Position numbers and translations under genes: made by a program
Source: Sunxiuqinia indica
Lineage (GTDB): Bacteria > Bacteroidota > Bacteroidia > Bacteroidales > Prolixibacteraceae
Direction of reading: 5' to 3'
Length of the DNA: 64,000 nt
Assembly (NCBI RefSeq): GCF_009847015.1
Contig: NZ_WVEM01000006.1
Location: 124,001-188,000 of the forward strand
The notes under the pieces: generated by a model
Told to the model about the DNA's origin: nothing
Database searches by the model: none
The model's input: the letters and a program-made list of their open reading frames with translations, nothing else
Shown here: positions 12,908 through 51,687 of the stretch, piece after piece
Numbering within the stretch: position 1 is the stretch's first letter
Layout: every line of letters starts with the position of its first letter

Positions 12908-12994
12908 TTATAATTTTTTGTTTTTAAAGGCATCATATGGAACTCGCTTATAATCTTCCTCCTGTGTGCAAGAACTTTTATATGCTCGTTTCAT
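12908..12994 (-). CDS. Leader-type small ORF, KRVP peptide family, upstream of rdgB
   Basis: A 28-codon ORF starts at ATG 12994 (an ATG also lies at 12997) and stops four bases before the rdgB ATG, in another frame. The peptide begins MKRAYKSSC and contains DYKRVPYDA. The same pattern, M-(K/N)-R-A-x-K, about nine variable residues, (Y/F)-(L)-K-R-V-P, is encoded just upstream of a barrel gene (43095) and the cotH gene (51568), and a broken copy precedes pepE (44097). Copies differ by a whole codon and keep their frames open, which points to translation. Function is unknown; a translated leader or a short basic peptide are the options. Confidence 0.55.
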
Positions 12995-13084
12995 CATTCG
13001 ATTCAAGAGTTTAGGCAAGTCTTGTTGATCAGAAATCGATCGGAATGAATTGCCTCATTTATTTCTAATTAATTTTAAAGCACT

Positions 13085-13092
13085 CAAATTTA
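13085..13092 (-). promoter_or_regulatory. Putative -7 element of the leader-rdgB-porZ-recO unit
   Basis: The minus strand reads TAAATTTG, matching TAnnTTTG, about 90 bases upstream of the leader ORF. It is the nearest full match before that gene group. Confidence 0.35.
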
Positions 13093-13105
13093 CAAAAACC
13101 TACCA

Positions 13106-13257
13106 ATGACCAATGCAGAAATTATTGATATGCTGATTCAAGACCGAAAAAGGGAGCTCAGTCAGAAAAGCTTGCGGATATGGTTCACCACCTAAAATGC
13201 CCGTTCATGAGCTCAGAAGGCCACTTCATCCATCAAAACGTGCAGTTCATAAAATAA
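13106..13257 (+). pseudogene. Possible frameshifted small gene remnant
   Basis: An ATG at 13106 opens a 29-codon frame (MTNAEIIDMLIQDRKRE) that closes at 13195. A second frame overlapping its end continues with protein-like sequence (EKLADMVHHLKCPFMSSEGH) to a stop at 13255-13257. One frameshift near 13150 would join them into about 50 residues. I do not recognise the family, and this could be chance. Confidence 0.25.
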
Positions 13258-13420
13258 TGTTGAAAAATACACGATCACTTATTACTTATCGTTAAATTAG
13301 CATAGTCAGTTTTTTTTCAGGCAGCCCAAGGGAGTGATGAAGAAAGCCGGGTCACAAAAAAAACAAATCAGTACTAAACCCAGGCATTAAATTTTAATTT
13401 GAATAAACCGGGTCACGAAC

Positions 13421-13525
13421 AAGCAATTTAAATTTTTTTTTGAGTGAATCTGGTTGCTGAGAAGCTGTAAAAGAAATGAATTCGGCTCTCTGTTCATCAG
13501 GAGAAGCAATTTAAATTTTTTTTTG
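13421..13525. repeat. Two identical 22-bp AT-rich direct repeats
   Basis: The same 22 bases (AAGCAATTTAAA, nine Ts, G) occur at 13421-13442 and 13504-13525, 83 bp apart. A shortened relative (TAAAATTTTTTTTCAC) follows near 13550-13565, and the 9-mer CCGGGTCAC occurs twice just upstream (near 13349 and 13409). They precede the DUF6261-like gene. Remnants of local duplication or protein-binding sites are both possible. Confidence 0.6.
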
Positions 13526-13638
13526 GTCCAACGGGAGCAGAGTGAACGCGTAAAATTTTTTTTCACAAAAAAACAGACCAAACCAGCAAAAACAAAAAAT
13601 CAAGTAAGTTCTTTTTTATTAACCCAAAAACAACCCTT

Positions 13639-14379
13639 ATGGAACTAAAATCATTTGTTGCGCTTTACGCGCGACACCTGACCATCGCACACCTGTACTC
13701 GATCAACAAATCGACCGTGGATTATGCCCGGCCGGTTATAGCTGAAATAGGTGGAGTCGCCCAGGCAACTTTCAACCAACTGGAAGCCGACAACCAGGCA
13801 ATGGGCGACCAAATGAACAAAGCTTCAAAGAGTGTACTGACTGCTAACCTGTCCGCGATGGACGAGGATCGAGACGACCGTTTTGCCGAAATAAAGCGAA
13901 ACGTGACCATGCACCTACTCGGGCGCGATGAACTAAAAAAAGAAGCCGCCCAACGCCTGAAAATATTTATGGACCCGTATTGGGATGCAAACGTTATGGC
14001 AATGAATACGCAAACCGGCATTTTGAACGAGCTTTTCAGAAAATTCGACCAACAGCAATCGCTGAAAGCCGATGCCACAGCAACCGATATTTTAGACATG
14101 ATGACCGGTCTGGAAACGGCCAATACCGAATTTGATGCCCTATATCAGGAACGAAATGCCCTGGAAGCCGCTGCCGACGGCCCCTCGGCAACCAGCCTGG
14201 AAGCAGCGGCAGCCAGCAGTTACGAACAGTTTTGTACAGCCATTGAACAAGCAGTCAATTTTACTCCTTCTGAAACGCTCATGACCTTGTTTAACCAACT
14301 GGACGAGCTGCGTAAAACCTACGCCAAACTGATCCATAAAAAGGAGAATAAAGAGGACGGACCAGTTCAGCCTACTTAA
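13639..14379 (+). CDS. Uncharacterised helical protein, DUF6261-like
   Basis: The 246-residue product has no signal peptide or membrane segment. It is predicted to be almost entirely alpha-helical, with long amphipathic stretches and an Ala-rich region about 175-195. It resembles the DUF6261 group of Bacteroidota proteins of similar length (a family assignment from memory). No catalytic motif is visible and no function is known. GC content rises sharply at its start compared with the T-rich repeats upstream. A 12-bp inverted repeat follows at 14393-14436. Confidence 0.7.
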   Translation: MELKSFVALYARHLTIAHLYSINKSTVDYARPVIAEIGGVAQATFNQLEADNQAMGDQMNKASKSVLTANLSAMDEDRDDRFAEIKRNVTMHLLGRDELKKEAAQRLKIFMDPYWDANVMAMNTQTGILNELFRKFDQQQSLKADATATDILDMMTGLETANTEFDALYQERNALEAAADGPSATSLEAAAASSYEQFCTAIEQAVNFTPSETLMTLFNQLDELRKTYAKLIHKKENKEDGPVQPT

Positions 14380-14392
14380 AATGACAATGAAA

Positions 14393-14436
14393 TACCTCCC
14401 GCAGTCAAGGATACAAATCGGTGCCTGCGGGAGGTA
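14393..14436. terminator. 12-bp perfect inverted repeat after the DUF6261-like gene
   Basis: TACCTCCCGCAG (14393-14404) pairs perfectly with 14425-14436 across a 20-base loop, 13 bases past the stop codon. There is no T-run, so it may be an RNA-stabilising 3' hairpin or a palindromic repeat instead of an intrinsic terminator. Confidence 0.45.
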
Positions 14437-14518
14437 GAGTTCAGAACTGAATGCTAACCGCAACTATTCGCGAATTCGTTCAAACCATCCTTTTTTCGTA
14501 TTCCGAACAAAACACAAG

Positions 14519-14567
14519 CCTTTCCGTTTCTAATTACGTTGCTTTTCAACGCAATTACCGGGAAAGG
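14519..14567 (+). promoter_or_regulatory. Extended hairpin in the leader of the small-protein/DUF2254 unit
   Basis: Outer arms CCTTTCC (14519-14525) and GGAAAGG (14561-14567) enclose an 11-bp inner stem with one mismatch (14531-14541 with 14547-14557) capped by a CTTTT loop. It lies 23 bases before the ATG at 14591. Its place fits a 5'-UTR regulatory structure; no known riboswitch class is recognised. Confidence 0.4.
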
Positions 14568-14590
14568 TATACTGAACGAAATTTGAACCA

Positions 14591-14743
14591 ATGAACGATC
14601 TTCCAGACAATGTCCGCTTGCTGAGCATTTATCAAGCTCTTTTATTGTCTGTCAGTTCAATGATTGTTTTCGTTGGCGGGTTGGCTGAGTCCAAACTAGC
14701 TCCGGTCGAAAATTTATTGACACACTTGTATTCTGACGAATGA
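14591..14743 (+). CDS. 50-residue single-pass membrane peptide coupled to the DUF2254 gene
   Basis: A 50-codon ORF (MNDLPDNVRLLSIYQ ...) stops at TGA 14741-14743, and the DUF2254 ATG begins at 14740, giving an ATGA overlap typical of translational coupling. Residues about 10-32 are hydrophobic (LLSIYQALLLSVSSMIVFVGG) and can span the membrane once; the C-terminus is polar and ends YSDE. It is shorter than usual annotation cut-offs. A small subunit or regulator of the DUF2254 protein is the simplest inference. I know no named family for it. Confidence 0.6.
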   Translation: MNDLPDNVRLLSIYQALLLSVSSMIVFVGGLAESKLAPVENLLTHLYSDE

Positions 14744-16113
14744 GTCACCTAAAAAAACGAATTATGCGTATCGGATTTAAATTTATCAAAACAAGACTGT
14801 CCAATAGTTGGGAGGCGATCCACACCAGTTTTTGGTTTATTCCATCATTGATGTTACTCTCTGCCATTGTAGCCGCCTTACTCATGATTGCCCTGGACAA
14901 GACCATCGATATCGATTCTTCCTCTGTGTCTCGAATTTTGTTTGATGTGGGCCCCGAAGGCGCGCGTTCGGTGCTGGCTACCATTGCCGGATCGATGGTA
15001 ACAGTAGCCGGTGTTGCTTTCTCGATTACGATTGTTGCACTTTCTCTGGCTTCCTCGCAATTTGGCCCCCGGTTATTGCGCAATTTCATGAAGGATGTCG
15101 GAAATCAGGTTGCACTTGGAACATTCATCGCTACTTTTATTTACTGTCTGATTGTGCTACGGTCTATTTATGCCGGTGAAGAAAATGCTTTTGTCCCGGC
15201 GCTATCTGTTAACTTTGGGGTTTTGCTGGCCATTGCTAACGTGGGTATGTTCATCTATTTTATTCATCATGTAGCTACCTCAATCCAGGCCGACCAAGTG
15301 GTTGCCAACGTATATTATGAATTGGACAACCGAATCGATCTGTTATTCCCCAATACCATTGAAGCCAAAGAAAATGAAGATAAAGCATCAGATGTTGAGA
15401 ATGAAAAACAAAAATATACCGGCACATACACGATTAATGCCCACAAAAGCGGATACCTGCAAGCAATTGATCGTGATGGCCTTGTAGAGGTCGCTCAGGA
15501 AAACAATTGTCTGATTGATTGTCAATATCGTCCTGGTGATTTTATCGTTCAAGGAAATAAATTCGTAACGGTAGAAAGCATGAACCAATTCGACGATGAT
15601 TTCCAGAGCCATATCGAAAGTCTATTTATTATCGGATCGAAAAGAACTCCGGAACAAGATGCAGAATTTGCTATTCATCAATTGGTTGAAGTGGCTATCA
15701 GGGCGCTATCGCCCGGAATAAATGATCCATATACAGCGCTTACCTGCATTGATCATCTGGGATCAATTTTATGCAAACTGGTCAACCGGAAATTTCCTTC
15801 TCCCCATTTAAAAGATGAAGAAGGCCGATTACGCGTCATCCTGAAAACAACATCGTTCACAACCGTAACGAATACTGCTTTCAGTCAAATCAGACAGTAT
15901 GGAAACAGTCATGTTTCGATACTAAAACGACTATTAGAAAACTTAATAACGATCGCCACGCTTGCTCAACAGCAAGAACAGTCAGCGGTTATTCAGCATC
16001 ATGGCGAAATGATTGAACGGGCAGTACGGGAGTTTGTCCCTGAAAAGGATGACCAGGAAGAGGTCATCTCCCACTACCGTGAATTGATGCACGTTTTAGA
16101 TCAAAAAAACTGA
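14740..16113 (+). CDS. DUF2254 integral membrane protein
   Basis: The 457-residue product matches DUF2254: an N-terminal membrane region with about four transmembrane helices (about 30-52, 85-110, 125-142 and 155-178), including MVTVAGVAFSITIVALSLASSQFGPR, and a large cytoplasmic part. That part contains the family motif ALSPGINDPYTALTCIDHL (about 328-346). Function is unknown; the conserved SPGxNDPxTA loop suggests ligand binding or enzymatic action. A small hydrophobic peptide gene overlaps its start by four bases. An A-run and hairpin follow at 16160-16177. Confidence 0.88.
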   Translation: MSHLKKRIMRIGFKFIKTRLSNSWEAIHTSFWFIPSLMLLSAIVAALLMIALDKTIDIDSSSVSRILFDVGPEGARSVLATIAGSMVTVAGVAFSITIVALSLASSQFGPRLLRNFMKDVGNQVALGTFIATFIYCLIVLRSIYAGEENAFVPALSVNFGVLLAIANVGMFIYFIHHVATSIQADQVVANVYYELDNRIDLLFPNTIEAKENEDKASDVENEKQKYTGTYTINAHKSGYLQAIDRDGLVEVAQENNCLIDCQYRPGDFIVQGNKFVTVESMNQFDDDFQSHIESLFIIGSKRTPEQDAEFAIHQLVEVAIRALSPGINDPYTALTCIDHLGSILCKLVNRKFPSPHLKDEEGRLRVILKTTSFTTVTNTAFSQIRQYGNSHVSILKRLLENLITIATLAQQQEQSAVIQHHGEMIERAVREFVPEKDDQEEVISHYRELMHVLDQKN

Positions 16114-16159
16114 CGTAACTGTGGCAAATACTCATCAGCCAAAAAATCAAAAAAAAAAA

Positions 16160-16177
16160 GGTTGCCGGGAAGCAACC
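16160..16177. terminator. GC hairpin flanked by an A-run
   Basis: GGTTGC (16160-16165) and GCAACC (16172-16177) form a stem over a CGGGAA loop, preceded by at least nine As. Read on the minus strand it is a hairpin followed by Us, a proper intrinsic terminator; on the plus strand it lies 46 bases after the DUF2254 stop. The rest of 16178-16340 holds nothing I can name. Confidence 0.45.
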
Positions 16178-16347
16178 TCATTTGGGAATAATTTCAAAAA
16201 GGGAACGGGAAGGCCGAGAATAATCCTGTTAATCTAAAATCTATCAAGTATTAACAGACTCACTTTCGTATGATATTAAAAATTCTTTTTATAATTTTAG
16301 TTGTCAATCACTTGTATGTTGACCTTCTAAAATTAAGGGGCTTGTTT

Positions 16348-16355
16348 TATCTTTG
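16348..16355 (+). promoter_or_regulatory. Putative -7 element of the comF promoter
   Basis: TATCTTTG is a full match to TAnnTTTG, about 120 bases upstream of the ComF ATG. No clear -33 element is seen at the standard spacing. Confidence 0.4.
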
Positions 16356-16473
16356 TATTACGACTGAATTATAATAGCATCAACCTATTGTTAACCAAAA
16401 GCCAAGGTATATTAACTTAACCTTTTTAAAATATTACAGTTTTTGAAATACTGAGTCACCACAATTGCTCAAA

Positions 16474-17169
16474 ATGCCGTTAACACTGAATTATATAAAT
16501 GCACTTCTGGAGCTATTCTATCCCCGCCTTTGCTTGGTTTGTGGGGAAAAACTAATCGCAGATGAGAACTACATCTGTTTAAAATGCCTACTTCATGCTC
16601 CACGCACCAATTTCCATTTAGAGCCTGAAAACCGGATGGAACAAATTTTCTACGGTCGTGTTCCGATCGAAAGAGCAACCGCCTTTTTTGAATTTAAAAA
16701 AGGGAGCAACTATCAAAAAATTCTTCATCATCTAAAATACAAGGGCATGAAAGAATTGGGTGAATTTATGGGTAGTCGGTTTGCCGGAGAAATCAAAGAT
16801 TCCAACTTCACTCAACATATCGATCTGATTTGCCCGGTTCCTCTTCATCCGCGGAAAGAGCGAAAAAGAGGTTACAACCAAAGCTATCATCTGGCTAAGG
16901 GACTTTCTGATGTTCTGCAAATTCCGATTGAACATGACGCCCTCGTCAGAAAGACGTTTTCAAGTACACAAACCCGAAAAAACCGCTATGAACGTTGGGA
17001 AAACGTGGAAGATATATTCCAGGTTATCAGCCCTGCAAACTTTACAAACAAACACATTTTACTAATTGACGATGTTGTAACAACCGGAGCCACGTTGGAG
17101 GCTTGTGCTGCCACCATTTTTAAAAGCTGCGACTGTAAAATAAGTCTGCTAACCCTGGCCATTGCCTAA
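16474..17169 (+). CDS. comF: ComF-family phosphoribosyltransferase-like protein
   Basis: From ATG 16474 the product has 231 residues. The N-terminus carries a four-cysteine zinc module (CLVCG ... CLKC), followed by the KYKGMKELGEFMG and CPVPLHPRKERKRGYNQS segments. The type I phosphoribosyltransferase PRPP loop HILLIDDVVTTGATLEAC comes near the end. In competent bacteria ComF acts in DNA uptake and processing; in other lineages its role is less clear. An in-frame TTG lies three codons upstream, but the ATG is preferred. It converges on the DUF4249 gene. Confidence 0.9.
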   Translation: MPLTLNYINALLELFYPRLCLVCGEKLIADENYICLKCLLHAPRTNFHLEPENRMEQIFYGRVPIERATAFFEFKKGSNYQKILHHLKYKGMKELGEFMGSRFAGEIKDSNFTQHIDLICPVPLHPRKERKRGYNQSYHLAKGLSDVLQIPIEHDALVRKTFSSTQTRKNRYERWENVEDIFQVISPANFTNKHILLIDDVVTTGATLEACAATIFKSCDCKISLLTLAIA

Positions 17170-17200
17170 CTCAGGAAAAAAACACGCCTAATTATCATTA

Positions 17201-18064
17201 CTAATTCTCTACTTCAGTCCCAGTATAAATGGCTTGTCCACGTTGTACTTCCATCACAGCGAAAAAGCCAAGTCCTCCATTGCTTACATTTCCTTTAGGA
17301 TTGGCTGATGGTCCGCTAAACATGGGAACCTTTTCGCCAGTTTCAAGATCCACTGCTGCAATAAAATCGTAATATTCCTTCGTAATTCCAGCCATTTCCA
17401 GCATAATGGTATCTCCCTGCTCAACAAACTCTCCATTCTCTTCATCAAAATACTGAACAACAGGTCCGTTGATCTCATTACCGTTAAAAAAGCGATCATC
17501 CGCTGTCCAATAATTGTGGATAGAATCCGTATAAAGCACCCCGTTTTTGTAGACTTTGAACAGGTAGTAATCTTCAGTTTCGGCAGGATCTTTACTGTAA
17601 AGCCCCACCTCCCAGCCTTCCCAGCTGGCATTATACGCAACCGCAACTCCCTGAACCGGAGCTGAAGCTTTCATTTCGGTTTCGGCCTCATAAGTTTCCA
17701 GTTGACCATCTCCATTCACATCAACACCCGAAACTGTTAATTTGTAGTGCGCACCAACCACTCCGCTATAGTCCTTTGGCGTTAAATAGATTCCCTGTCG
17801 ATCTGCATCTTCAGTTAGTTGAATGGTTTGAAAATCATTTTCAATAGTAAGCACAGCTCCGGAAACCATTTCTGGAGACTGATTACTAAAATAGGGCGCT
17901 GATTTCCCCAACCAGACTTCGTGTGCTTTTACTTCGTTGGTTATTTCAGCAAAAACAACCAAGCGAGGCTCCCCGGCCTCTTCCAGATCAATGTCTACAC
18001 GTTCGGTGCACGATTGCAGCAAAACAATTAAAAAAGCGATTGAAAATATATATTTGAATGGCAT
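17201..18064 (-). CDS. DUF4249 lipoprotein paired with the TonB receptor
   Basis: The 287-residue product has a lipoprotein signal (LLQSC, Cys19) and the DUF4249 features: an early EPRLVVFAEITNE strand, Ig-like beta structure, and a C-terminal NPKGNVSNGGLGFFAV motif. DUF4249 proteins are almost always encoded beside a TonB-dependent receptor and are thought to act as its surface partner, by analogy with SusD. The ATG lies five bases after the receptor's stop, so the two are co-transcribed and probably co-translated. The ligand is unknown. Confidence 0.9.
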   Translation of the reverse strand: MPFKYIFSIAFLIVLLQSCTERVDIDLEEAGEPRLVVFAEITNEVKAHEVWLGKSAPYFSNQSPEMVSGAVLTIENDFQTIQLTEDADRQGIYLTPKDYSGVVGAHYKLTVSGVDVNGDGQLETYEAETEMKASAPVQGVAVAYNASWEGWEVGLYSKDPAETEDYYLFKVYKNGVLYTDSIHNYWTADDRFFNGNEINGPVVQYFDEENGEFVEQGDTIMLEMAGITKEYYDFIAAVDLETGEKVPMFSGPSANPKGNVSNGGLGFFAVMEVQRGQAIYTGTEVEN

Positions 18065-18069
18065 GATGG

Positions 18070-20424: not shown

Positions 20425-20563
20425 TTTCTAATTGTTTTCAGTTGTTCTTTATTTTCAGCTTTCTCTATAAGACAACCTTAATACTCAAACGTTGCAGTTT
20501 TTTGTCAAAAAAATGGACTAAATGCAGGAAACTGCGACTACAAGACTCCGAAAACAATCAAAA

Positions 20564-21190
20564 TCAGCGACCTAACCGATAGTACAAACCTGTACTTATT
20601 ACATTGCTATATTGATCATCCAGCCAATAGGAAACAGCTTGCCCCGGCAAATCGCGAATGGGAAGGACTGAATAGCCAAGTCTTAAATCAAGTGTTAGTC
20701 GATCAATAAAGTCGTATCTCATGCCAACAAAAGCCTGAAAATCGAAAGCATTGAATTCGCGTTGTTCAACTTCCGGGATTTCACCATAATTGTCCAGTTC
20801 TTTGCTGTGCACCAGGTATCCGGCCGATAGCCCTGCCAGGATTGAAATCCGATCGCTTGTTCGATATCCCAAAAAGAAGGGTACTTCAGCATAACCCAAA
20901 CGCATGATATATTTTTCAAGGTCTTTTTGTTGCACATTGGTGGTTTTATTCGACGGGTTTTTGCGGCTTCCTTTTTGCGAGTACTTAATTTCCATTCCAA
21001 AGAATAAGTCCCGACTGAAATCCCGCATCACATAACCACCAAGCAACAAACCGGGTTTGCGATAACCATTGGTGTTATCTCCCGAAACCTGAGACGCATT
21101 AAATCCACCTAAAACCCCACCTTCAAAGCGTTGTGCCCGAAGCGCAAAAACGTTCAAGGCAAATAGTACAACAAGTAAAATTCTTCTCAC
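20564..21190 (-). CDS. PorT-family outer-membrane beta-barrel protein
   Basis: The 208-residue product begins with a signal peptide (cleaved near LRA-Q, residue 20), followed by GGVLGGFNASQVSGD. Alternating beta-strands typical of the PorT/outer-membrane-beta-barrel family follow, ending in GLYYRLGR. Such proteins form small eight-stranded barrels; most have no assigned function. The start codon is GTG (21190), one base after the stop of the sirtuin gene, so the two are likely one transcription unit. Whether it takes part in type IX secretion cannot be told. Confidence 0.8.
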   Translation of the reverse strand: MRRILLVVLFALNVFALRAQRFEGGVLGGFNASQVSGDNTNGYRKPGLLLGGYVMRDFSRDLFFGMEIKYSQKGSRKNPSNKTTNVQQKDLEKYIMRLGYAEVPFFLGYRTSDRISILAGLSAGYLVHSKELDNYGEIPEVEQREFNAFDFQAFVGMRYDFIDRLTLDLRLGYSVLPIRDLPGQAVSYWLDDQYSNVISTGLYYRLGR

Positions 21191-21191
21191 G

Positions 21192-22018: not shown

Positions 22019-22023
22019 TGGCT

Positions 22024-42098: not shown

Positions 42099-43007
42099 AT
42101 GAAACGAGCAGTAACAACAACCCTGTTAATTTTCCTTTTTGCTGTGGCACTAGTTGCACAAGACACCACCAAAGTAGGAAAAGTAGTTGAAGTAAAAGAA
42201 GGACCCGGCAGAACTGAAGTGGGATTATTTAGAGACCGGATTTATATTGATGATAATGACGATAACGATACAACACACATACGTTTTGGAAAGCGGAATA
42301 TTGAGATTATAGAGCGAGAGGGACAAACAAACATTAACATGCACCGTGACCGGTTTTGGGAAGATGAAGATAGGGATAAAGACAACTGGAAACATAACAA
42401 TTTTGACGGCCACTGGGCTGGTTTTGAACTAGGCGTAAATGGCTTTTACGATACGAATTACCTCGGAGCCGATGAATTCATGGAGCTCAATCAGCCAAAA
42501 TCGATCGAAGTGAATATTAACTTCTTAGAATATAATATTGCCTTAAAAGAAAATCGGATAGGACTGGTAACTGGCATGGGCTGGTCGATGAACAACTATC
42601 GCTTTGACAACCCGCTTACAATAGAAAAAGTGAATGGAATGATTGTGAAAAAAGACCTTGATCCTGACGGATTTGACAAGTCAAAACTGACGGTTTCGTA
42701 TCTGACCATTCCGCTATTACTCGAATTTCAAGTTCCAGTCAACCGGCGAAGCAATTACCTGTTTATTCAGGGTGGCGTAATTGGTGGCTTAAATATTGGC
42801 TCGCACACCAAGTATAAAACCGACCACACCAAGAGCAAAGATCGTGGAAGTTTCAACATCAATCCATTTAAGTATTCACTTGCCGGGCGGATTGGGCTAA
42901 AAGATATCAGCGTATTTGCCACTTATAGCCTGTCGACCTTCTTTAAAGAAGATAAAGGACCGGAGCTTTTCCCCTTCTCAATCGGAATTGGCTTGGTTAA
43001 CTTCTAA
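42099..43007 (+). CDS. Outer-membrane beta-barrel protein, first paralogue
   Basis: From ATG 42099 the protein has 302 residues: a signal peptide (cleaved near VAQ, about residue 21), an Asp-rich charged N-terminal region (about 45-95, DDNDDND), and a PorT-like barrel starting at GHWAGFELGVNGF. The barrel includes LTVSYLTIPLLLEFQVPV and ends with the aromatic FPFSIGIGLVNF. The gene after the terminator (43182) is a clear paralogue (GHWSGIYLGVNGF). Position after an ECF sigma/anti-sigma pair suggests the operon responds to envelope state. The acidic stretch might bind divalent cations. Confidence 0.82.
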   Translation: MKRAVTTTLLIFLFAVALVAQDTTKVGKVVEVKEGPGRTEVGLFRDRIYIDDNDDNDTTHIRFGKRNIEIIEREGQTNINMHRDRFWEDEDRDKDNWKHNNFDGHWAGFELGVNGFYDTNYLGADEFMELNQPKSIEVNINFLEYNIALKENRIGLVTGMGWSMNNYRFDNPLTIEKVNGMIVKKDLDPDGFDKSKLTVSYLTIPLLLEFQVPVNRRSNYLFIQGGVIGGLNIGSHTKYKTDHTKSKDRGSFNINPFKYSLAGRIGLKDISVFATYSLSTFFKEDKGPELFPFSIGIGLVNF

Positions 43008-43057: not shown

Positions 43058-43070
43058 CAATTTTCATGCT

Positions 43071-43078: not shown

Positions 43079-43094
43079 TTTAAGGAAATAAGTC

Positions 43095-43181
43095 ATGAAT
43101 CGAGCACGTAAAAAATCCGTCCGCACAAAAGAATCGTTTAAGCGAGTTCCACATGACCCCTACAAAAAGCATCCGATTAGA
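43095..43181 (+). CDS. KRVP-type leader sequence, in frame with the second barrel gene
   Basis: ATG 43095 opens 29 codons (MNRARKKSV ... SFKRVPHDPYKK) that run straight into the barrel gene's ATG at 43182 with no stop. The pattern matches the separate peptides upstream of rdgB and cotH. A basic 29-residue extension would sit badly before a signal peptide. So either the barrel starts at 43182 and this part is a leader, or the leader's stop has been lost. Confidence 0.5.
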
Positions 43182-43982: not shown

Positions 43983-44096
43983 ACCAGGCTGCTGATAAAT
44001 TTCCTGTTTTATTCTTTTTGATTTTCTTATTTTAGTTGACTTGTTTGAGGTATTGAAATCAATGATGGTTCGAACCATATAAATAGGAATAAACGG

Positions 44097-44177
44097 ATGA
44101 AACGAACATGAACTTTTTTAATCAAAAATTCACAAACAAAGATGATTAAAAAAGTTTATGTGAGCGCGGAGCGGTTC
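44097..44177 (+). repeat. Broken copy of the KRVP leader upstream of pepE
   Basis: ATGAAACGAACATGA at 44097 repeats the first bases of the 51568 leader but stops at codon 5. Further downstream, AAAAATTCACAAACAAAG, ATGATT and GAGCGGTTCCAT follow in the same order as in the intact copies. An inserted stretch and substitutions break the frame. It lies about 55 bases before the pepE ATG, the same relative position as the intact copies. Confidence 0.4.
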
Positions 44178-44230
44178 CATCCGTTCTCAAATTTAAAGTA
44201 CGTTTTAAAAAACTTGAAAATTTTAAACGG

Positions 44231-44941
44231 ATGAAATTATTACTTCTTAGCAACTCAACAATGCCCGGAGAACCGTATCTGGGGTATCCAAAAAAGCAGA
44301 TCCAGCAGTTTTTAGGCAAAAAAAAAGTAAAAGCCTTATTCATTCCCTACGCGGCCGTTAGCTTTTCGTTTGACGACTATGAGCAAAAAGTAAATGAAAG
44401 CTTGCAGGAAATAGGCCACGAGGTCGTTGGTATTCATCACTTCAGGAATCCCGTAAAAGCAGTTGAAGAAGCTACAGCCATTGTCATTGGCGGGGGAAAT
44501 ACCTGGCAGCTGGTTCGTATGTTGCACGATCAGGATTTGATGGACCCGATTCGTAAGAAGGTGAAAGCCGGAACACCTTATGTAGGTTGGAGTGCCGGAT
44601 CGAATGTGGCTTGCCCATCGCTACGCACAACCAACGACATGCCCATTATTGATCCCAAGGGATTTAACACCATCAACCTGGTTTCATTTCAAATTAACCC
44701 CCACTACCTCGATGCGAATCCCCAGGGACACGGTGGCGAAACCCGCGAACAGCGGATATCCGAGTTCTTGGAGATCAACCCCAATGTTTACGTAATTGGT
44801 TTACGCGAAGGAACCATGCTGAAACTGGAAGACAACAAACTGGAACTGATTGGCGAACGCTCGACCCGTATTTTTATTCAGGGAAAAACACCATACGAGC
44901 TAAAGCCCGGCGACGATTTTTCCTTTCTGTTAAAAGAATAG
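44231..44941 (+). CDS. pepE: Alpha-aspartyl dipeptidase (peptidase E, S51 family)
   Basis: The 236-residue product matches PepE: an N-terminal LLLLSNSTMPGEPYLG, the family's IGGGNTWQLVR, and the nucleophile serine in YVGWSAGSNVACP, followed by NPHYLDANPQGHGGETREQRI. It cleaves Asp-Xaa dipeptides in the cytoplasm. Length equals that of enteric PepE. A degenerate KRVP-type leader lies just upstream (44097). No close operon partner; the transporter gene follows with its own promoter element. Confidence 0.95.
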   Translation: MKLLLLSNSTMPGEPYLGYPKKQIQQFLGKKKVKALFIPYAAVSFSFDDYEQKVNESLQEIGHEVVGIHHFRNPVKAVEEATAIVIGGGNTWQLVRMLHDQDLMDPIRKKVKAGTPYVGWSAGSNVACPSLRTTNDMPIIDPKGFNTINLVSFQINPHYLDANPQGHGGETREQRISEFLEINPNVYVIGLREGTMLKLEDNKLELIGERSTRIFIQGKTPYELKPGDDFSFLLKE

Positions 44942-44992
44942 TTAATCATCCTATTTATAACGGCATTTAAAGACGTTGAGGCAAAAAGTTTA

Positions 44993-45000
44993 TACTTTTG
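44993..45000 (+). promoter_or_regulatory. Putative -7 element of the AspT-type transporter gene
   Basis: TACTTTTG matches TAnnTTTG, 21 bases before the ATG at 45022. Confidence 0.5.
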
Positions 45001-45021
45001 TAGCCTTAAAAATCAAATGCC

Positions 45022-46605
45022 ATGGGTTTGTTTAGTAACAGCTATTTTGCACTTTTCCTGATCATTTTAATCGGTTTCATCATTGGCCGGATAAAAATAA
45101 AAGGCATATCGCTCGATGTCTCTGCCGTAATTTTTGTCGCCTTGGTTTTCGGACACTTTGGAATCATCATTCCCAAGGACTTTCAATACCTGGGGCTGGT
45201 ATTATTCATCTTCACCATTGGAATTCAGGCGGGGCCCGGATTTTTTGGCTCGTTTAAAAAGAATGGTCGTGAATTGGCGGTGCTGGCCAGTTTACTAATT
45301 TTCACTTCCAGTCTGATCACCTTTGGTATTTTCCATTTTATGGGAATTGATAAAAGCCTGTGTATTGGCTTGCTAACCGGGGCGTTAACCAGCACGCCCG
45401 GATTGGCTGCTGCTATCGACACAACCGGTTCACCACTGGCATCTATTGGTTATGGTATTGGCTACCCGTTTGGGGTTATTGGCGTCATTTTGTTTGTCAG
45501 CTTATTGCCTCGTTTTCTTCGCGTGAATATCAAGGATGCTGAAGCTCAATACAAAAAGGAAATGTCAGCCGGTTACCCCGAAATCATGCGCAAAAATTTT
45601 GTGGTTGAAAATGAAAATGTCGTTGGTAAAACCATTGGCGGACTGCGTATTCGGTTTATGACTAAAGCGGTTGTTTCGCGTGTCATGCACGGAGATACAG
45701 CAATTACACCTTCACGGGATACAATGCTGCAAAAAGGAGACGTTATTAAAGCTGTTGGAACCGAAGAAGCCTTGAGCCGTGTTCAGTTGTTGATTGGCCC
45801 GGAAACAACGACCGAAATTCCACTGAGCACCCACTATGATGTGCGCTCATTTTTGGTGACCAACAAAGAGATTGTGAATAAAACCCTGGGGCAACTCAAT
45901 ATTCTGAATACCTATAATGCAACAATCACCCGGATTCGTCGTTCGGGAATTAATATTTCACCCAGTCCTTCTTCTAAATTACAATTTGGTGATAAAATTA
46001 TTGTTGCTTGCCATAAAGAAAGCATGGAGCAGGTCGCCCGTATTTTTGGCGATGACGACCGCCGCTTGTCGGACACCGATTTCTTCCCAATTGCGACCGG
46101 AATTATTTTGGGAATCCTGGTTGGTAAGTTAAGCATCAACTTTGGCTCATTCTCCTTTAGCTTAGGACTAACAGGCGGTATTTTACTCACAGCCCTTATT
46201 TTAGGACGTACGGGAAAAACCGGCCCTATTATGTGGACAATGACCGGTGCTGCCAATCAACTACTTCGGCAGTTTGGTTTGTTGTTTTTTCTGGCCGCGG
46301 TGGGTACCGGAGCCGGATCGAGCCTGGTAGAAACCTTCCAGCAATATGGCGTTGAGCTATTTGTGTATGGAATCATCATCACCTTGGTGCCCATGATTAT
46401 AACAACCATTATTGCACGCTATGCACTAAAAATGAATATCCTAACCCTGCTGGGGACCTTAACCGGTAGTATGACCAGTACGCCCGGGCTGGCAGCCATC
46501 GACGGAATGACCGATACCGATGCTCCGTCAGTAGCTTATGCAACGGTTTACCCAATTGCGATGGTGTTATTAATTGTGTTTGTGCAGATTTTAAGTTTGA
46601 TTTAG
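45022..46605 (+). CDS. Aspartate:alanine exchanger-type (AAE/YidE) transporter with two TrkA-C domains
   Basis: The 527-residue protein has the duplicated AAE layout: about five membrane helices with GALTSTPGLAAA, two central RCK/TrkA-C domains (about 195-275 and 280-355), then a second membrane half with GTLTGSMTSTPGLAAIDG. The repeated TSTPGLAA motif is diagnostic. Homologues include the AspT exchanger and E. coli YidE/YbjL; the substrate here is unknown, although it follows the aspartyl dipeptidase gene. A HAD phosphatase gene begins 12 bases downstream. Confidence 0.92.
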   Translation: MGLFSNSYFALFLIILIGFIIGRIKIKGISLDVSAVIFVALVFGHFGIIIPKDFQYLGLVLFIFTIGIQAGPGFFGSFKKNGRELAVLASLLIFTSSLITFGIFHFMGIDKSLCIGLLTGALTSTPGLAAAIDTTGSPLASIGYGIGYPFGVIGVILFVSLLPRFLRVNIKDAEAQYKKEMSAGYPEIMRKNFVVENENVVGKTIGGLRIRFMTKAVVSRVMHGDTAITPSRDTMLQKGDVIKAVGTEEALSRVQLLIGPETTTEIPLSTHYDVRSFLVTNKEIVNKTLGQLNILNTYNATITRIRRSGINISPSPSSKLQFGDKIIVACHKESMEQVARIFGDDDRRLSDTDFFPIATGIILGILVGKLSINFGSFSFSLGLTGGILLTALILGRTGKTGPIMWTMTGAANQLLRQFGLLFFLAAVGTGAGSSLVETFQQYGVELFVYGIIITLVPMIITTIIARYALKMNILTLLGTLTGSMTSTPGLAAIDGMTDTDAPSVAYATVYPIAMVLLIVFVQILSLI

Positions 46606-46617
46606 TAGATTCGAATC

Positions 46618-47322
46618 ATGAGCTTTCAAGATATTCAGGTTATCGCTTTTGATGCCGACGACACCCTTTGGGAAAATGAAAACTTCTTTCGTGAAGCGGA
46701 ACAGCAATTTTGTGAGTTGCTGAAAGCGTATCAACCCCGCGAACAGATCATGGAACAGCTGTTCAAAGTTGAGGTTCAGAACATGGAGATTTATGGCTAC
46801 GGAATTAAAGCCTTCATCTTGTCGTTGGTTGAAACATCCTTGTTAATTTCGGATAAAAAAGTACGCCCGGAAGAGGTGGAGGCCATAGTCGACATTGGCA
46901 AAACCATGCTCAACAAAGACGTTGTTTTATTGGATGGCATTCGCGATGTGCTGGAAGAGCTTGCGCCAAACTATCGGTTGGTATTGGCTACCAAAGGCGA
47001 TTTACTCGATCAGGAGCGGAAGTTAAAAAAGTCGGGCTTACTCAACTATTTTCATCATATTGAGGTGATGAGCCATAAAAAAGAGACCAATTATCAGGCG
47101 CTTTTAAATCACCTGGATATTGAAGCCCGACATTTTATGATGATCGGCAACTCCTTAAAATCGGATGTGCTTCCGGTGATTAACCTGGGCGGAACGGCTG
47201 TTCATGTGCCTTATTGTACCACCTGGGTTCTCGAACAAATGAACCCGGAAGACATCAAAAGTGACCGATTTTTTGAACTAAAGGAAATACGTGATGTTTT
47301 GACATTGTTCACTAAAGCATAA
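46618..47322 (+). CDS. HAD-superfamily hydrolase
   Basis: The 234-residue protein has HAD motif I AFDADDTLWEN (Asp nucleophile and general acid), motif II in VLATKG, a lysine (KK about 168) and motif III MMIGNSLKSDVLP. A helical cap (about 25-105) places it in subfamily I. It is likely a phosphatase of small metabolites; the substrate is unknown. It lies 12 bases after the transporter and 11 before the DUF2797 gene, so the three form one operon. Confidence 0.9.
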   Translation: MSFQDIQVIAFDADDTLWENENFFREAEQQFCELLKAYQPREQIMEQLFKVEVQNMEIYGYGIKAFILSLVETSLLISDKKVRPEEVEAIVDIGKTMLNKDVVLLDGIRDVLEELAPNYRLVLATKGDLLDQERKLKKSGLLNYFHHIEVMSHKKETNYQALLNHLDIEARHFMMIGNSLKSDVLPVINLGGTAVHVPYCTTWVLEQMNPEDIKSDRFFELKEIRDVLTLFTKA

Positions 47323-47333
47323 ATGGCCTGAAA

Positions 47334-48137
47334 ATGGAATACCAAGGGAACATACTAAAAATGAGAACCGAGTTGGATGATCCGATTCAATATCAATTGC
47401 CTATTGGTGATGAGCTGGTGAATATGAATGCGCTCATTGGCCAACTCATTCAGTTTAATTTTGACGGACAAATCAATTGTATTTCATGCGGCAAGAAAAC
47501 CAAGACTTCGTTTAGTCAGGGATTTTGCTACAATTGCTATCAAACAGTACCCGAAGCAGGAGCCGATATCATGCGTCCGGAATTGTCGCGAGCGCAATAC
47601 GGTGTAGCCCGCGATATCAAGTGGGCCGAAGAGCACGACCTGATTGACCACTATGTGTACCTGGCTGTTTCGAGCGAATTAAAAGTCGGTGTTACCCGTC
47701 ATCATCAGGTGCCAACACGCTGGATAGACCAGGGAGCAAGCCGAGCCATTCGCCTGGCCAAAACACCAAACCGACACATTGCAGGCATCATCGAAGTGTT
47801 ATTAAAAAAGCACTTTACCGATAAAACCAACTGGCGGGCCATGTTGCAAAATCAGCTTGATGAATCGATTAAACTAGACGAAGAAAAGCAGAAAGCATTG
47901 AAGCTGATACCTGCCGAACTGCAGCAATACTTCTCCGACGAAAACGAAATACTTGAGCTTCACTACCCGGTAACGGCTTATCCTGAAAAGGTAAAAAGTA
48001 TAACTTTCGATAAACAAGCAGAGATTGTTGGTAAACTGATGGGAATTAAAGGACAATATCTTATTTTTGACAAAAATCAGGTGCTGAATATCCGAAAGCA
48101 CAACGGATACTTTTTAAGGCTTGCTGTTAATTCATAA
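47334..48137 (+). CDS. DUF2797 protein with zinc finger
   Basis: The 267-residue product matches DUF2797: an N-terminal strand region, a C-x2-C ... C-x2-C zinc finger (CISCGKKTKTSFSQGFCYNC, about 49-68), and a central segment (YVYLAVSSELKVGVTR ... RWIDQGASRAIRLAKTPNR) that looks like a GIY-YIG fold. Function is unknown; the GIY-YIG-like part hints at nucleic acid contact. It ends the AspT-HAD-DUF2797 operon. Confidence 0.88.
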   Translation: MEYQGNILKMRTELDDPIQYQLPIGDELVNMNALIGQLIQFNFDGQINCISCGKKTKTSFSQGFCYNCYQTVPEAGADIMRPELSRAQYGVARDIKWAEEHDLIDHYVYLAVSSELKVGVTRHHQVPTRWIDQGASRAIRLAKTPNRHIAGIIEVLLKKHFTDKTNWRAMLQNQLDESIKLDEEKQKALKLIPAELQQYFSDENEILELHYPVTAYPEKVKSITFDKQAEIVGKLMGIKGQYLIFDKNQVLNIRKHNGYFLRLAVNS

Positions 48138-48330
48138 CTGACGGTTCGTTACAGTTGCCAAATTAATAGCTTAAGCACGAAAAGAATTAAAGATTGGTAC
48201 TAGCCTGTTTTTGAACATGTGTGTAAAACATTTATTTAAACGTTGAAATGGATCAAATGACATCCCCTATTGACCATTTTTTCTTTATTTTAGGGTTTCT
48301 AAAAAAACCTGATTGGCAAACAATAAAACT

Positions 48331-49344
48331 ATGGAAATTCAAGATTGGAAAACGATTGGCTTTGGATACCGCAAAACGAACCTGAATGTTCGTTGCTATT
48401 ATAAAAATGGCGAGTGGGGCGAACTGGAACTGAGCGATTCCGAATACCTTAATATACATATGGCTGCTACGTCGTTGCATTACGGCCAGGAAGCCTTTGA
48501 AGGATTGAAAGCCTTTAAAGGGAAAGATGGTAAAGTCCGTGTATTTCGGATGGATGAAAATGCCAAACGCATGCAACACTCGAGCGACGGCATTCTGATG
48601 CCTCACGTTCCTATCGAAACCTTTGAGGAAGCCGTTAAACTGGCAGTAAAAAAGAATATCGAATTTGTTCCTCCATACGGAAGCGGTGCCTCCTTATATA
48701 TTCGTCCGCTGCTGATTGGTGTTGGCCCCGAAATTGGTGTGCGCCCATCGCAGGAGTACTTGTTTATTGTTTTTGTAATGCCCGTGGGACCCTATTTCCC
48801 CGAAGGATTCAAACCAACCGACTTGCTGATTATGCGGCAGTTTGATCGTGCGGCACCACTGGGAACCGGGAAATACAAAGTGGGCGGAAACTATGCGGCA
48901 AGCTTAACAGCCGGCAAAAAAGCTAAAGCCGAAGGTTATTCTGCCGTACTTTACCTGGATGCCCGCGAAAAGAAATACCTCGACGAATGTGGACCGGCTA
49001 ACTTTTTCGGAATCAAGAATAATACCTATATCACGCCGAAGTCAGAATCAATTTTGCCTTCAATTACCAACAAAAGCATCATCCAAATTGCCGAAGATAT
49101 GGGTTTGAAAATAGAGCGCCGGCAAGTGCCTGTTGAAGAGCTGGAAACCTTTGAAGAAGTTGGAGCCTGCGGTACAGCCGCGGTCATTTCTCCAATCAAG
49201 CGAGTTTACGATGCCGACGAGGATAAAGAATACCTCTACGGAAATGAGCCCGGTACCTGGAGTACCAAATTATACGAAAAACTTCGGGCCATACAAGATG
49301 GCGATGCTCCTGATCCATACGGATGGGTGACTGTTATTGAATAA
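48331..49344 (+). CDS. ilvE: Branched-chain amino acid aminotransferase
   Basis: From ATG 48331 the enzyme has 337 residues and is of the larger class IV type. LHYGQEAFEGLKAF, the PLP lysine in GTGKYKVGGNYAASL (about Lys183), YLDECGPANFF and the EEVGACGTAAVISPI loop are all present. It transaminates leucine, isoleucine and valine with 2-oxoglutarate. The upstream TTG at 48313 is not needed. An intrinsic terminator follows at 49367. Confidence 0.95.
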   Translation: MEIQDWKTIGFGYRKTNLNVRCYYKNGEWGELELSDSEYLNIHMAATSLHYGQEAFEGLKAFKGKDGKVRVFRMDENAKRMQHSSDGILMPHVPIETFEEAVKLAVKKNIEFVPPYGSGASLYIRPLLIGVGPEIGVRPSQEYLFIVFVMPVGPYFPEGFKPTDLLIMRQFDRAAPLGTGKYKVGGNYAASLTAGKKAKAEGYSAVLYLDAREKKYLDECGPANFFGIKNNTYITPKSESILPSITNKSIIQIAEDMGLKIERRQVPVEELETFEEVGACGTAAVISPIKRVYDADEDKEYLYGNEPGTWSTKLYEKLRAIQDGDAPDPYGWVTVIE

Positions 49345-49366
49345 ATTACCTCAACCAAAAATATTG

Positions 49367-49403
49367 AAAGCCTTGTTTACAACTAGTAAATGAGGCTTTT
49401 TTA
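49367..49403 (+). terminator. Intrinsic terminator of ilvE
   Basis: A 14-bp stem with two G-U pairs (49367-49380 with 49386-49399) and an AACTA loop is followed by Ts, 22 bases past the stop codon. Confidence 0.85.
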
Positions 49404-49578
49404 TTGGTACCTGCCAAGTTGCAGACACCAATTTGTAGGTGTAGCAACCAGCGCTCGGCCCAACTTCAATACCTCGGGTGAAGTGGACCACCTCAAGTTC
49501 GGTCATCCTAAACTCGATTCAGGATCGGAAGATGCTACCTTTACCCTAAAAAGTGCCTCCTATCTTGTAAAAAATGGA

Positions 49579-49681
49579 CTCCAGAGAGTAGCCCCTACTC
49601 CAAACAGGTTTTAGTCCACTCCAGAGAGGTGACAGAGCATTCCAAAGAGGTTTTAGCCTACTTCAATCAGGAAATAGTGGA
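49579..49681. repeat. Five tandem degenerate 21-bp repeats
   Basis: Units start at 49579 (19 bp), 49598, 49619, 49640 and 49661 (21 bp each), with a consensus near CTCCAAAGAGGTTTTAGCCA. On the minus strand three units read in one frame as the heptads LKPLWNA, LSPLWSG and LKPVWSR, but no start codon opens that frame. The region 49404-49578 holds no gene I can support; an imperfect hairpin GTTGC ... GCAAC lies at about 49419-49447. Confidence 0.7.
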
Positions 49682-49817
49682 CATGTAATGAGAGTGAGTG
49701 TATCTTAAACCTTTTCCCGAGCTTTGAGTTAAGTATATTCATGCACGCACACAAATATGCTTGATTATCTTAGGCTAATTCCAGGTGTCGCAGCGAAAAC
49801 CAAACAATTGTAAAGAC

Positions 49818-50309
49818 ATGAGAGCTATTCAATTTAAGAGCTATGGGTTTCCTGAAAAGGTTCTGGAGATTAAGAAAGTAGCAAAGCCTGTACCGAAGGT
49901 AAACGAAGTTCTAATTCGAATTCATGCGACCGCGATTAATGATTATGACTGGAGTTTTGTCAGAGGTAAACCGTATTTATATCGGTTAATGTTTGGCTTA
50001 TTCAAACCAAAACAGAAAACTCCAGGTATGGAACTAGCGGGCTTAGTTGAAGATATCGGTGTAAATGTTAAGAAGTTCAAAATTGGAGATACAGTCTTTG
50101 GTGATCTATCCGAATATGGCTTTGGCACTTTTGCAGAGTATATCAGCATCAATGAAAATTCAGTAATCAGGAAACCTGATGAATTAAGCTTTGTTGAAGC
50201 AAGCGCTATTCCACACGCATCGGCTCTTGCCCTTCAGGCTCTTAGAGACCTTGGCGAGATAAAGCAGGGACAGAAAATTTTAATTAATGGCGGCGGCGGT
50301 GGTGTTTAA
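49818..50309 (+). pseudogene. Truncated zinc-type alcohol dehydrogenase/quinone oxidoreductase
   Basis: From ATG 49818 about 163 residues match the N-terminal half of MDR-family quinone oxidoreductases: GFPEKVLEIKKV, the GroES-like domain with HATAINDYDWSFVRG, PGMELAGLVEDIG, GDTVFGDLSEYGFGTFAEY, and the start of the Rossmann motif, INGGGGGV. A stop follows directly, where intact enzymes (about 330 residues) continue. No remainder is found downstream, so the 3' half was deleted. Confidence 0.8.
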
Positions 50310-50379
50310 AGGACTGGATATATAAAAGGCACGAATAGTCAGTTCGCGCCAGCGGGGTGTTAATTAAAGTCGCCGGTTT

Positions 50380-50898
50380 TTACTCTTCGGCTTGGTTTAA
50401 TGAGGAATGATGTTCATGAACGATTCTCCAACCATTTTCCGTATCGACGAATAACAGTGATATTTGGTCGTTAACGGTGACCAAGTCGTTTTCGAATTTT
50501 AACTGAAAATCGGAGTGAAGCGTGACGTTGGCGACGTCTCCATAAACCGCGATCTTCATATCATTCATATCGAATTTCTTGACTTCGGTAACCGAACCAA
50601 AAACTCCGCGTTCAAATTCTTCGTTTGCTTTTGCGCCATTGCGAACTTCCCCGTTCTTAAATTCAGTAAACTTGGGGCTGTAGGCGTGAAACGATATGAG
50701 CCGGTCAATATCTCCATCTTTTATGCTTTGTGCGATGCTGTCCATGGTCATCCGAACCTCTTCCTTAGCCTCGGTAAATTCGTCATTAATCAGGTCAACT
50801 TCCTCTTCCTGCATGGCAACTTGTTGTTCTCTCGGTGTGCATGCTGCAATTAAAGCCGCAAGCATGATCGTTAATAAAAATGTCAAATTTGTTTTCAT
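50380..50898 (-). CDS. Lipoprotein with SnoaL/NTF2-like domain
   Basis: The 172-residue product has a lipoprotein signal (LAALIAAC, Cys20), a charged helix (about 25-60), and a SnoaL/DUF4440-like domain: DSIAQSIKDGDIDRLISFHA, then AVYGDVANVTLHSDFQL and GWRIVHEHHSSL. Secreted proteins of this type lack a common known activity; some bind or isomerise small molecules. It is flanked by the truncated oxidoreductase and a gene-poor stretch, and has no operon partner. Confidence 0.82.
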   Translation of the reverse strand: MKTNLTFLLTIMLAALIAACTPREQQVAMQEEEVDLINDEFTEAKEEVRMTMDSIAQSIKDGDIDRLISFHAYSPKFTEFKNGEVRNGAKANEEFERGVFGSVTEVKKFDMNDMKIAVYGDVANVTLHSDFQLKFENDLVTVNDQISLLFVDTENGWRIVHEHHSSLNQAEE

Positions 50899-51567
50899 GA
50901 TTTTGTATTTAATTAATTGATACTTAATTAATAAAATACGAAATTTTTAGTGAGAATGCAATCCCCAAAACTTGTTGTCGCTTTTATTTCGAACCAATGC
51001 CAGTTATTTTCCTTTGGGCTTTTTCTAACGTAGGAGCGGTATTGCCAGTGGTTGTTCTTTTGCAAACGGCAGCGACCAGTTTGTCGGGCTAACTGCCCTT
51101 GTTTCTGCAAAACAATACCGGATATGACGATGGCTTTAGCCTGTCACCCGTTTGCCACGCTTCCACACGATTGCACCTTTTCTTCAGCAATACCTTGCGG
51201 ATTTAAGGCGGAATCAAGGGGGGAGCCGGGATCCAATTGCCGATTGAAACGAATACAAAAAAGGCCGAAATTAGAACTGCAAACGGAAACATGCGGAATC
51301 CAGGAAGAATCGCGCGGGAGCAGGGGCACTAGTCAATAAAACAAAAAACTTTACTCGTGCCTGATTGTTCATGAAAAACAGACACTAATTAGCCACTTTT
51401 TTGACTCTACTTCTGGGTATCATTATTCTTACTTCGAGATGTGGCAATTTCCTGTAAGAGACTGCTATGTCAGACGTTTGCTCAACTATTTCCATGGTTG
51501 TTTTTTCGGGAGTAAACAATTTATTTTTTTGTTACCTACTAAGGAATTAACTTTAAAAGATAATTGG
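50899..51567. other. Gene-poor interval upstream of the cotH leader
   Basis: Only short overlapping frames with unlikely codon use occur here, none with a recognisable domain. Cys- and Pro-rich translations near 51052-51339 look like chance reading. At 51548-51555, TAACTTTA is an imperfect -7 element 12 bases before the KRVP leader ORF. Confidence 0.4.
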
Positions 51568-51687
51568 ATGAAACGAGCATGTAAAAATATTCACACACAG
51601 AAGCATGATTATTTAAAGCGAGTTCCATGTGTTGCAAAAAATAAACAATTACAAACACATGAAACTCCACAACTGACTAGTTATTAA
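51568..51687 (+). CDS. Leader-type small ORF, KRVP peptide family, upstream of cotH
   Basis: ATG 51568 opens 39 codons (MKRACKNIHTQKHDYLKRVP ... TSY) ending 33 bases before the CotH ATG. The N-terminal 20 residues match the peptide upstream of rdgB apart from one inserted codon (Leu). Twelve bases, AAGCGAGTTCCA, are identical in all three intact copies. The peptide is basic and has no signal or membrane segment. A longer frame from 51439 exists but its upstream part is not conserved in the other copies. Confidence 0.55.
   Translation: MKRACKNIHTQKHDYLKRVPCVAKNKQLQTHETPQLTSY

Follow-up and report, generated by a model that had tools for sequence, protein, structure and literature searches.

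The window analysed here is a stretch of 64,000 nucleotides (nt) from the 5.25 Mb genome of Sunxiuqinia indica (contig NZ_WVEM01000006.1, positions 124,001 to 188,000), in which a first-pass annotation had described a dispersed family of short 'KRVP peptides' encoded upstream of unrelated genes. These peptide frames are very probably (roughly 0.8) copies of a hairpin-forming mobile DNA element of Bacteroidales that is about 90 nt long. Each frame runs from a left ATG through the first stop codon. The repeat unit exceeds the frame, as it begins at the left ATGAA and reaches the following one, and aligned copies from the source genome give it the layout ATGAA-ACGAGC...GCGAGTTCCAT...NNN-ATGAA. 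From left to right, the copies consist of ATGAAACGAGCATG, a variable loop that often carries ACACAGGAG, the conserved GCGAGTTCCAT, an A/T-rich stretch and the right ATGAA. In most copies of the source genome, the two ATGs lie about 90 nt apart. Element size ranges from about 85 to 105 nt, or from about 190 to 220 nt where extra internal sequence is present.

The three short frames are found where they had been placed, at 12908-12994 on the minus strand and at 43095-43181 and 51568-51687 on the plus strand, and the broken copy at 44097, before the gene labelled pepE, is also present. The twelve bases said to be common to the three frames, AAGCGAGTTCCA, occur three times in the window with no mismatch. 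Chance would supply 0.27 occurrences even with one mismatch allowed, and none of 100 window shuffles reached three. The copies placed before rdgB, the barrel gene and pepE finish exactly at the start codon of the named gene (rdgB 12903, barrel gene 43182 and pepE 44231). In the fourth window copy, at 51568 and placed before cotH, the right ATGAA at 51659 opens only five codons, and the next long open reading frame (ORF) lies 62 nt downstream. The identity of rdgB is backed by family models; pepE, barrel and cotH are labels of the first-pass annotation only.

In the whole source genome (G000), AAGCGAGTTCCA occurs 19 times, compared to once for a reversed control pattern, and 18 of these occurrences fall within elements (the exception is L016 4021). 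A 16-base pattern for the left end gives 42 matches with up to two mismatches, compared to four for its control, and a 97-nt BLAST query gives 45 matches at E values up to 1. A loose scan returned 97 candidate stretches, and a separate filter, which allowed at most four mismatches and required a right [AT]TGA at about the expected position, left 48 copies. This set, which excludes the window copies at 43095 and 44097, is the one used below unless stated otherwise. Copies from other Bacteroidales come from an exact-pattern scan of named genomes, which gave at least 116 stretches, 80 of them listed by name.

Insertion at ATGAA and at gene starts

Orthologues of 11 downstream genes were found in congeners with one joined query, and 40 upstream regions were compared. 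The closest congener (G004) is without the element at rimO, tyrS, aroK and ppk. At each of these sites, the S. indica flanks with the element removed align to the congener sequence with no gap at the joint. Because the congener sites are uninterrupted and exact to the base, the element is mobile, as judged from these alignments. Further congeners also lack it there (G006, G005 and G001 at rimO, tyrS and aroK; G003 at rimO; G005 at ppk), so these four copies were gained in the S. indica line. Of the possibilities that the first-pass annotation had listed, exact empty sites bear out the spreading repeat that carries a start region along. S. indica and its closest congener share copies at rdgB, ptp, folD, lysC, pgm and a membrane-protein gene, and also at the window sites 43095 and pepE. 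The shared rdgB copy (L088 in the closest congener) was not seen within 170 nt upstream of the gene in G006, G005 or G001 (L097, L107 and L115). The rfbB site lies outside this comparison. So does the 51568 copy, because synteny with the closest congener in the compared stretches ends at window position 49469.

The extent of the directly repeated sequence can be read from the bases that follow it. Of 172 copies, 171 have A directly after the left ATGAA. After the right ATGAA the base is T, G or C in 24 copies, and in 23 of these 24 the left sixth base is A. Since the sixth bases differ between the two sides, only ATGAA is repeated and the element proper starts with ACGAGC. The same five-base repeat is seen against relatives at tyrS (ATGAAC) and lysC (ATGAAG). 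Right ends in the 172-row set were picked partly by their likeness to ATGAA and by pairing, which inflates the figure of 166 of 172, and a few of the rows are chance matches; the sixth-base comparison is unaffected by how the right end was picked.

A longer target duplication drawn from the upstream flank is unsupported in S. indica and its family relatives. In the Bacteroidales set, 15 of 127 copies match their flank at 3 nt compared to 7.1 for shuffled pairs (p 0.002), and the last flank position alone gives 60 matches compared to 38.6. This excess shrinks once element-like flanks are removed (5 of 96 compared to 2.4 at 3 nt), and a longer duplication was rejected.

An ORF of 80 or more codons starts at the right ATG in 38 of the 48 S. 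indica copies, and the ten exceptions include the 51568 copy. In 469 kb of this genome with copies masked, ATGAA occurs 121 times at the first ATG of such ORFs, 238 times in other non-coding sequence and 1647 times inside ORFs. Tested with all 48 copies against the 34% expected from the start plus non-coding background, the preference for starts has p = 1.4e-10. A wider test used a differently filtered set of 40 S. indica, 20 family and 106 Bacteroidales copies, the last of which may include the viral contig described below. Among the Bacteroidales loci, after removal of 13 tandem copies, 66 of 93 copies are at starts compared to a background of 239 of 764 (p = 5e-15). Both backgrounds are approximate, as the rule for calling ORFs was crude. 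The first-pass annotation had held that copies scattered with no preference for positions upstream of genes would speak for a non-coding repeat; the preference observed in both tests is strong.

Selection may add to any insertion preference for starts. Among the 12 youngest S. indica copies, eight are at starts (p = 0.02), compared to 30 of the 36 others (Fisher p 0.24). Flanks beyond ATGAA resemble those of ordinary gene starts in all but the sixth base, which is A in 92% of cases compared to 68%. When ten downstream proteins were compared to NCBIfam models, nine passed the model cut-off and a phosphatase match fell below its own. In these nine, the model alignment begins within residues 1 to 7 of the protein translated from the right ATG, which indicates that this ATG is the native start. 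At aroK, where the flanks were read by eye, the stop codon of the upstream gene overlaps the start codon, and the left ATGAA preserves this stop.

Hairpins of the element

Two hairpins can be drawn within the unit. In P1, AAAC-GA-GCATG pairs to CATGC-GA-GTTCC with a conserved tandem G-A mismatch. In P3, CATNNN(NN) pairs to (NN)NNNATG, which places the downstream start codon in the stem. Pairing was counted from fixed blocks, and the pattern used to collect the Bacteroidales set itself makes P1 near-invariant there. In the 127 Bacteroidales copies, the first variable position of P3 (N1) is paired in 90% compared to 43 +- 4% for shuffled partners, N2 in 85% compared to 54%, and N3 in 86% compared to 77%. 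In S. indica, positions one and four are clearly above shuffles and position three less so. Perfect complementarity at N1-N3 is found in 116 of 192 copies, which use 13 different words, and two more words, CGA/GAG and GAG/CGA, give tandem G-A pairs. Related copies inflate these pairing counts; the 13 words nevertheless reflect more than one event. Sliding the P3 partner reduces pairing in all three sets. On these counts, P3 covaries at three positions next to the pairing of the start codon with CAT.

When ten correctly placed copies were folded as RNA, P3 formed in all ten and P1, in the register drawn, in seven. With DNA folding parameters, both strands fold weakly. The left ATG is also able to pair to the CAT used by P3, and therefore both ends compete for one guide-like word. 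The window copy before pepE holds a long hairpin in addition to a CATCCGTT/AAACGGATG pairing. Positions of the copies and of their conserved parts are collected in Table 1. Elsewhere in the window, at 42099-42112, ATGAAACGAGCAGT resembles the left end with no element behind it and looks like an ordinary gene start.

Table 1. Element copies and conserved segments in the window
Feature	Position	Strand	Remark
Element copy before rdgB	12904..12994	-	Left ATGAA 12990-12994; rdgB ATG 12901-12903 begins right ATGAA
Conserved GCGAGTTCCAT	12937..12947	-	3' arm of hairpin P1; CAT within also opens hairpin P3
Element copy before gene with ATG 43182	43095..43181	+	Small frame stops at codon 3 in G004
Diverged, longer copy before ATG 44231 (pepE of first-pass annotation)	44097..44230	+	Left ATG deleted in G004
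Young element copy	51568..51658	+	98% identical to BLAST query
Twelve-base core AAGCGAGTTCCA of first-pass annotation	51616..51627	+	Pattern search

Possible routes of movement and candidate enzymes

Genes in these genomes commonly start with ATGAA. The element, taken as non-autonomous, inserts at ATGAA and leaves ATGAA on both sides without terminal inverted repeats. At a gene start, such an insertion recreates the start codon behind the A/T-rich stretch of the element itself. If ATGAA is the target, the start-codon habit would follow because insertion there rebuilds the start codon. Insertions at starts are thereby tolerated, and those inside genes are presumably purged. The short frame is a by-product that begins where it does because ATGAA is repeated at the left junction.

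The combination of a fixed pentanucleotide target, the lack of inverted terminal repeats, imperfect-hairpin ends and an internal word complementary to the target is best fitted by single-strand transposition. The element may move as a folded single strand with the help of a HUH-type (Y1) nuclease acting in trans, a step that we propose with considerable doubt. In this scheme, the internal GTTCCAT would pair alternately to the left ATGAAAC (P1) and to the right ATGAA (P3) and so define both ends. Slightly more speculative is the proposal that these copies represent a class of start-codon-homing elements, wherein one internal 7-nt guide, GTTCCAT, would find the target, define both ends and reform the start codon, with the enzyme supplied in trans by the Bacteroidales host.

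Several known systems offer partial parallels. Rickettsia palindromic elements are small mobile repeats that sit inside reading frames and become part of the protein. The element described here is likewise a small repeat that moves and leaves the gene at its point of insertion functional; unlike them, it sits at the start codon and outside the protein. A classical DDE MITE would have terminal inverted repeats; the left end (ACGAGC...) and the right end (...NNN, varying by copy) form none.

Non-autonomous derivatives of IS200/IS605, as portrayed in PMC6006769 and PMC8266576, share with the element a short target at the left flank and subterminal hairpins; like it, they lack terminal inverted repeats and hold an internal word able to pair to the cleavage sites. 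The fixed short target and lack of inverted repeats are evident in ATGAA on both sides and in the exact empty sites. IS200/IS605 elements have one hairpin per end, each with a guide immediately 5' of its foot; here there are two hairpins with a single candidate guide between them that both ends would share. The element also differs in having the same pentanucleotide at both ends, in a right hairpin that includes the junction ATG, and in having no autonomous copy in the loci read.

REP/REPIN sequences and their RAYT (TnpA-REP) partners are likewise short, non-autonomous, present in many copies and built on a hairpin that conserves mismatches, with a mobiliser expected in trans (PMC6006769). According to the same source, subclass 2.6 RAYT genes of Bacteroidetes are flanked by atypical secondary structures that are copied elsewhere in the genome. 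The element departs from this system in its length of about 90 nt, its two hairpins, its insertion at ATGAA and its lack of a GT[AG]G foot. No GT[AG]G was found 5' of the hairpin foot; the sequence upstream of P1 is variable host sequence, and the left end reads ATGAAACGAGC. It also differs from the repeats that flank the RAYT genes examined. No description of such an element was found in the literature searched, which included PMC6006769, PMC3733652, PMC8266576 and PMC2864571.

Matches to the element occur in 29 of the 61 genomes searched, its own included, although single matches in G051 and G052 look like chance. Among the matches listed, records are titled Bacteroidales or Bacteroidota, except for two contigs named 'Bacterium BMS3Abin03', and they include Marinilabilia, Anaerophaga, Thermophagus, Draconibacterium, Maribellus, Parabacteroides sp., Paludibacter and Dysgonomonadaceae. 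Plasmid and phage collections gave no match. One copy lies on a viral contig of 4.6 kb (L306 443-582), where the next ATGAA, 72 nt past GTTCCAT, starts an ORF of 137 amino acids and the right hairpin is imperfect.

In 18 cases, a copy runs directly into another copy. Tandem copies abut at a shared ATGAA at L004, L020, L023 and L029 in S. indica, at L049 in its closest congener, and at L190, L195, L204, L219 and L221; two copies at L003 are separated by 129 nt. The gene-proximal copy is better preserved at L003, L004 and L029, with age judged by eye. At three Anaerophaga-type loci (L278 from 948, L287 from 2845 and L297 from 857), copies are about 212-218 nt long. In these, the left end and the right-end sequence are kept and the middle is swapped for sequence that contains a REP-like palindrome, with the same insert at all three loci. 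Other inserts are found in copies of 192-201 nt at L217, L221, L281 and L292. A gene recurring between two copies was sought, and only two unrelated ORFs were found.

The search for a mobilising enzyme covered 120 Y1/RAYT loci, some of them overlapping, which are part of 251 matches from four overlapping searches. Y1 transposases of any kind do not track the element, as their genes are also present in element-free genomes. The single Y1-domain match (PF01797) in S. indica (L127, C35:109986-110327) lies among GGGCTTTAGCCC and CCGGATTTATCCGG, GC-rich REP repeats unrelated to the element. In the high-copy genome of Anaerophaga (L312), one full and two partial copies, one of which carries a REP-like insert, lie upstream of a Y1 gene at a distance of up to about 0.6 kb. 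In G027 (L187 890-989), a left-end-like ATGAAACGAACATG is followed about 90 nt on by GTGAGTTCCAT, at about 0.5 kb from a Y1 gene, with no right ATGAA. IscB (RRXRR), sought as the sign of an IscB/OMEGA element, matched none of 37 genomes; the family matched no control genome either, so this control is uninformative.

A RAYT subclass with motifs fitting subclass 2.6, as characterised in PMC6006769, scores as REP_Tyr_transpos. It reaches at least 60 bits in 24 of 61 genomes, and the element is present in 19 of these 24 compared to 10 of the 37 others (Fisher p 8e-5, uncorrected for kinship and with fragments in G000, G020 and G027 counted). The closest congener has a tandem pair of such genes, one with a stop codon (C2:47473-49433). 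S. indica retains only N-terminal fragments of the pair (C2:126164-127770) and a further fragment on C33. In spite of the statistical association, this subclass was rejected as the mobiliser because the three loci examined carry their own repeats.

A number of observations weigh against a mobile element of the proposed kind. None of the genes in the 120 loci read has the element's ends as its own, and among these loci there is no autonomous relative encoding a Y1 transposase with the same ends. The three subclass-2.6-like RAYT loci examined carry other repeats, and this subclass is absent or weak in the element-rich genomes G011, G014, G016 and G024, with only fragments in S. indica. The hairpin evidence is also uneven. 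P3 positions four to six are unpaired in the Bacteroidales set, and in S. indica N2, which has many G-A mismatches, and N5 are not clearly above shuffled pairing. RNAalifold, applied to a MAFFT alignment of the 48 S. indica copies, returned zero consensus pairs. Evidence as to which strand folds is mixed, as the tandem G-A pairs favour the sense strand whereas A-C exceeds G-U at N1-N3 in the Bacteroidales set. Finally, four of the 12 youngest copies lie away from starts.

Alternative readings and consequences

One alternative is that the copies are folded att-like sites moved by a tyrosine recombinase, in the manner of integron single-strand recombination, with ATGAA as the crossover sequence. 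The layout of P1 recalls attC, with 7-nt outer boxes ATGAAAC/GTTCCAT, a GA/GA spacer, inner boxes GCATG/CATGC and a variable loop. The R boxes of attC are RYYYAAC and GTTRRRY, which ATGAAAC and GTTCCAT do not fit, and we know of no counterpart of the right-end hairpin P3 in att-like sites. This reading is unlikely, though it survives better than the three that follow.

A slightly less likely reading takes the copies for RNA switches in 5' leaders, in which P3 hides the start codon and an alternative extension of P1 frees it, such that the copies constitute a regulon. The start codon does lie in the covarying P3 stem, a single CAT is contested by P1 and P3, and eight of the ten correctly placed copies folded as RNA have z scores of -2 or lower (range -1.15 to -3.65). 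The downstream genes are unrelated, however, and encode RimO, tyrosine-tRNA ligase, shikimate kinase, FolD, aspartate kinase, polyphosphate kinase and RdgB. In addition, copies come and go among congeners, and some precede no ORF. Rfam gave no match at the gathering score for the window elements (E values up to 10) or for six copy loci (E values up to 1), and only sub-threshold overlaps were seen.

It is improbable that the copies stem from a retro-element, that is, an RNA copy inserted by a reverse transcriptase or by group II intron machinery in trans. The tandem G-A pairs, which stabilise RNA, are on the sense strand, and G-U slightly exceeds A-C among the P3 pairs of S. indica; the Bacteroidales set shows the reverse, so that these counts point both ways. 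Reverse transcriptases do not track the element, and the element-rich genomes G009, G014 and G016 are without an RVT_1 match.

The peptide reading of the first-pass annotation, as regulatory leader peptides or a family of small basic proteins, has the least chance of all. In its favour, 27 of the 48 S. indica copies have an ATG frame of at least 20 codons, 34 of 48 place GCGAG in the same frame as counted from the left end, the length difference between the two subfamilies is one codon, and in subfamily 1, 8 of 21 substitutions are synonymous compared to 20% expected. KRVP is encoded from the ATG of the frame in 12 of 48 copies, and the left ATG is replaced in nine. In other Bacteroidales, the conserved block is spread over all three frames (GCGAG in 50, 48 and 30 copies); neither leader peptides nor small basic proteins are supported. 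The substitutions show no clear synonymous excess: across the two S. indica subfamilies, 11 of 34 distinct substitutions are synonymous compared to about 20% expected (p = 0.07 without transition correction).

Comparison of S. indica with its closest congener adds to what largely refutes the peptide reading. As read by eye, an intact ATG frame is absent in at least one of the two species at five of eight shared copies, and the gene's own ATG is intact in both species at all eight. The left ATG is AGG in S. indica at ptp, ACG/AGG at folD, and GTG in the closest congener at lysC. At 43095 the frame stops at codon 3 in the congener, and at pepE the ATG is deleted in the congener and a stop is found at codon 5 in S. 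indica. Frames, substitutions and this species comparison together led to rejection of a leader peptide or small protein.

A mobile DNA element that lands on a start codon and rebuilds it could live in compact genomes at little cost. In one genome, dozens of unrelated genes have had their translation-initiation region replaced by the element, which may change gene expression in many Bacteroidales. For gene finders it is a warning, since the small frames that the element makes mimic conserved leader peptides. The guide-like word that matches the target poses a directly testable question about the mobilising enzyme.

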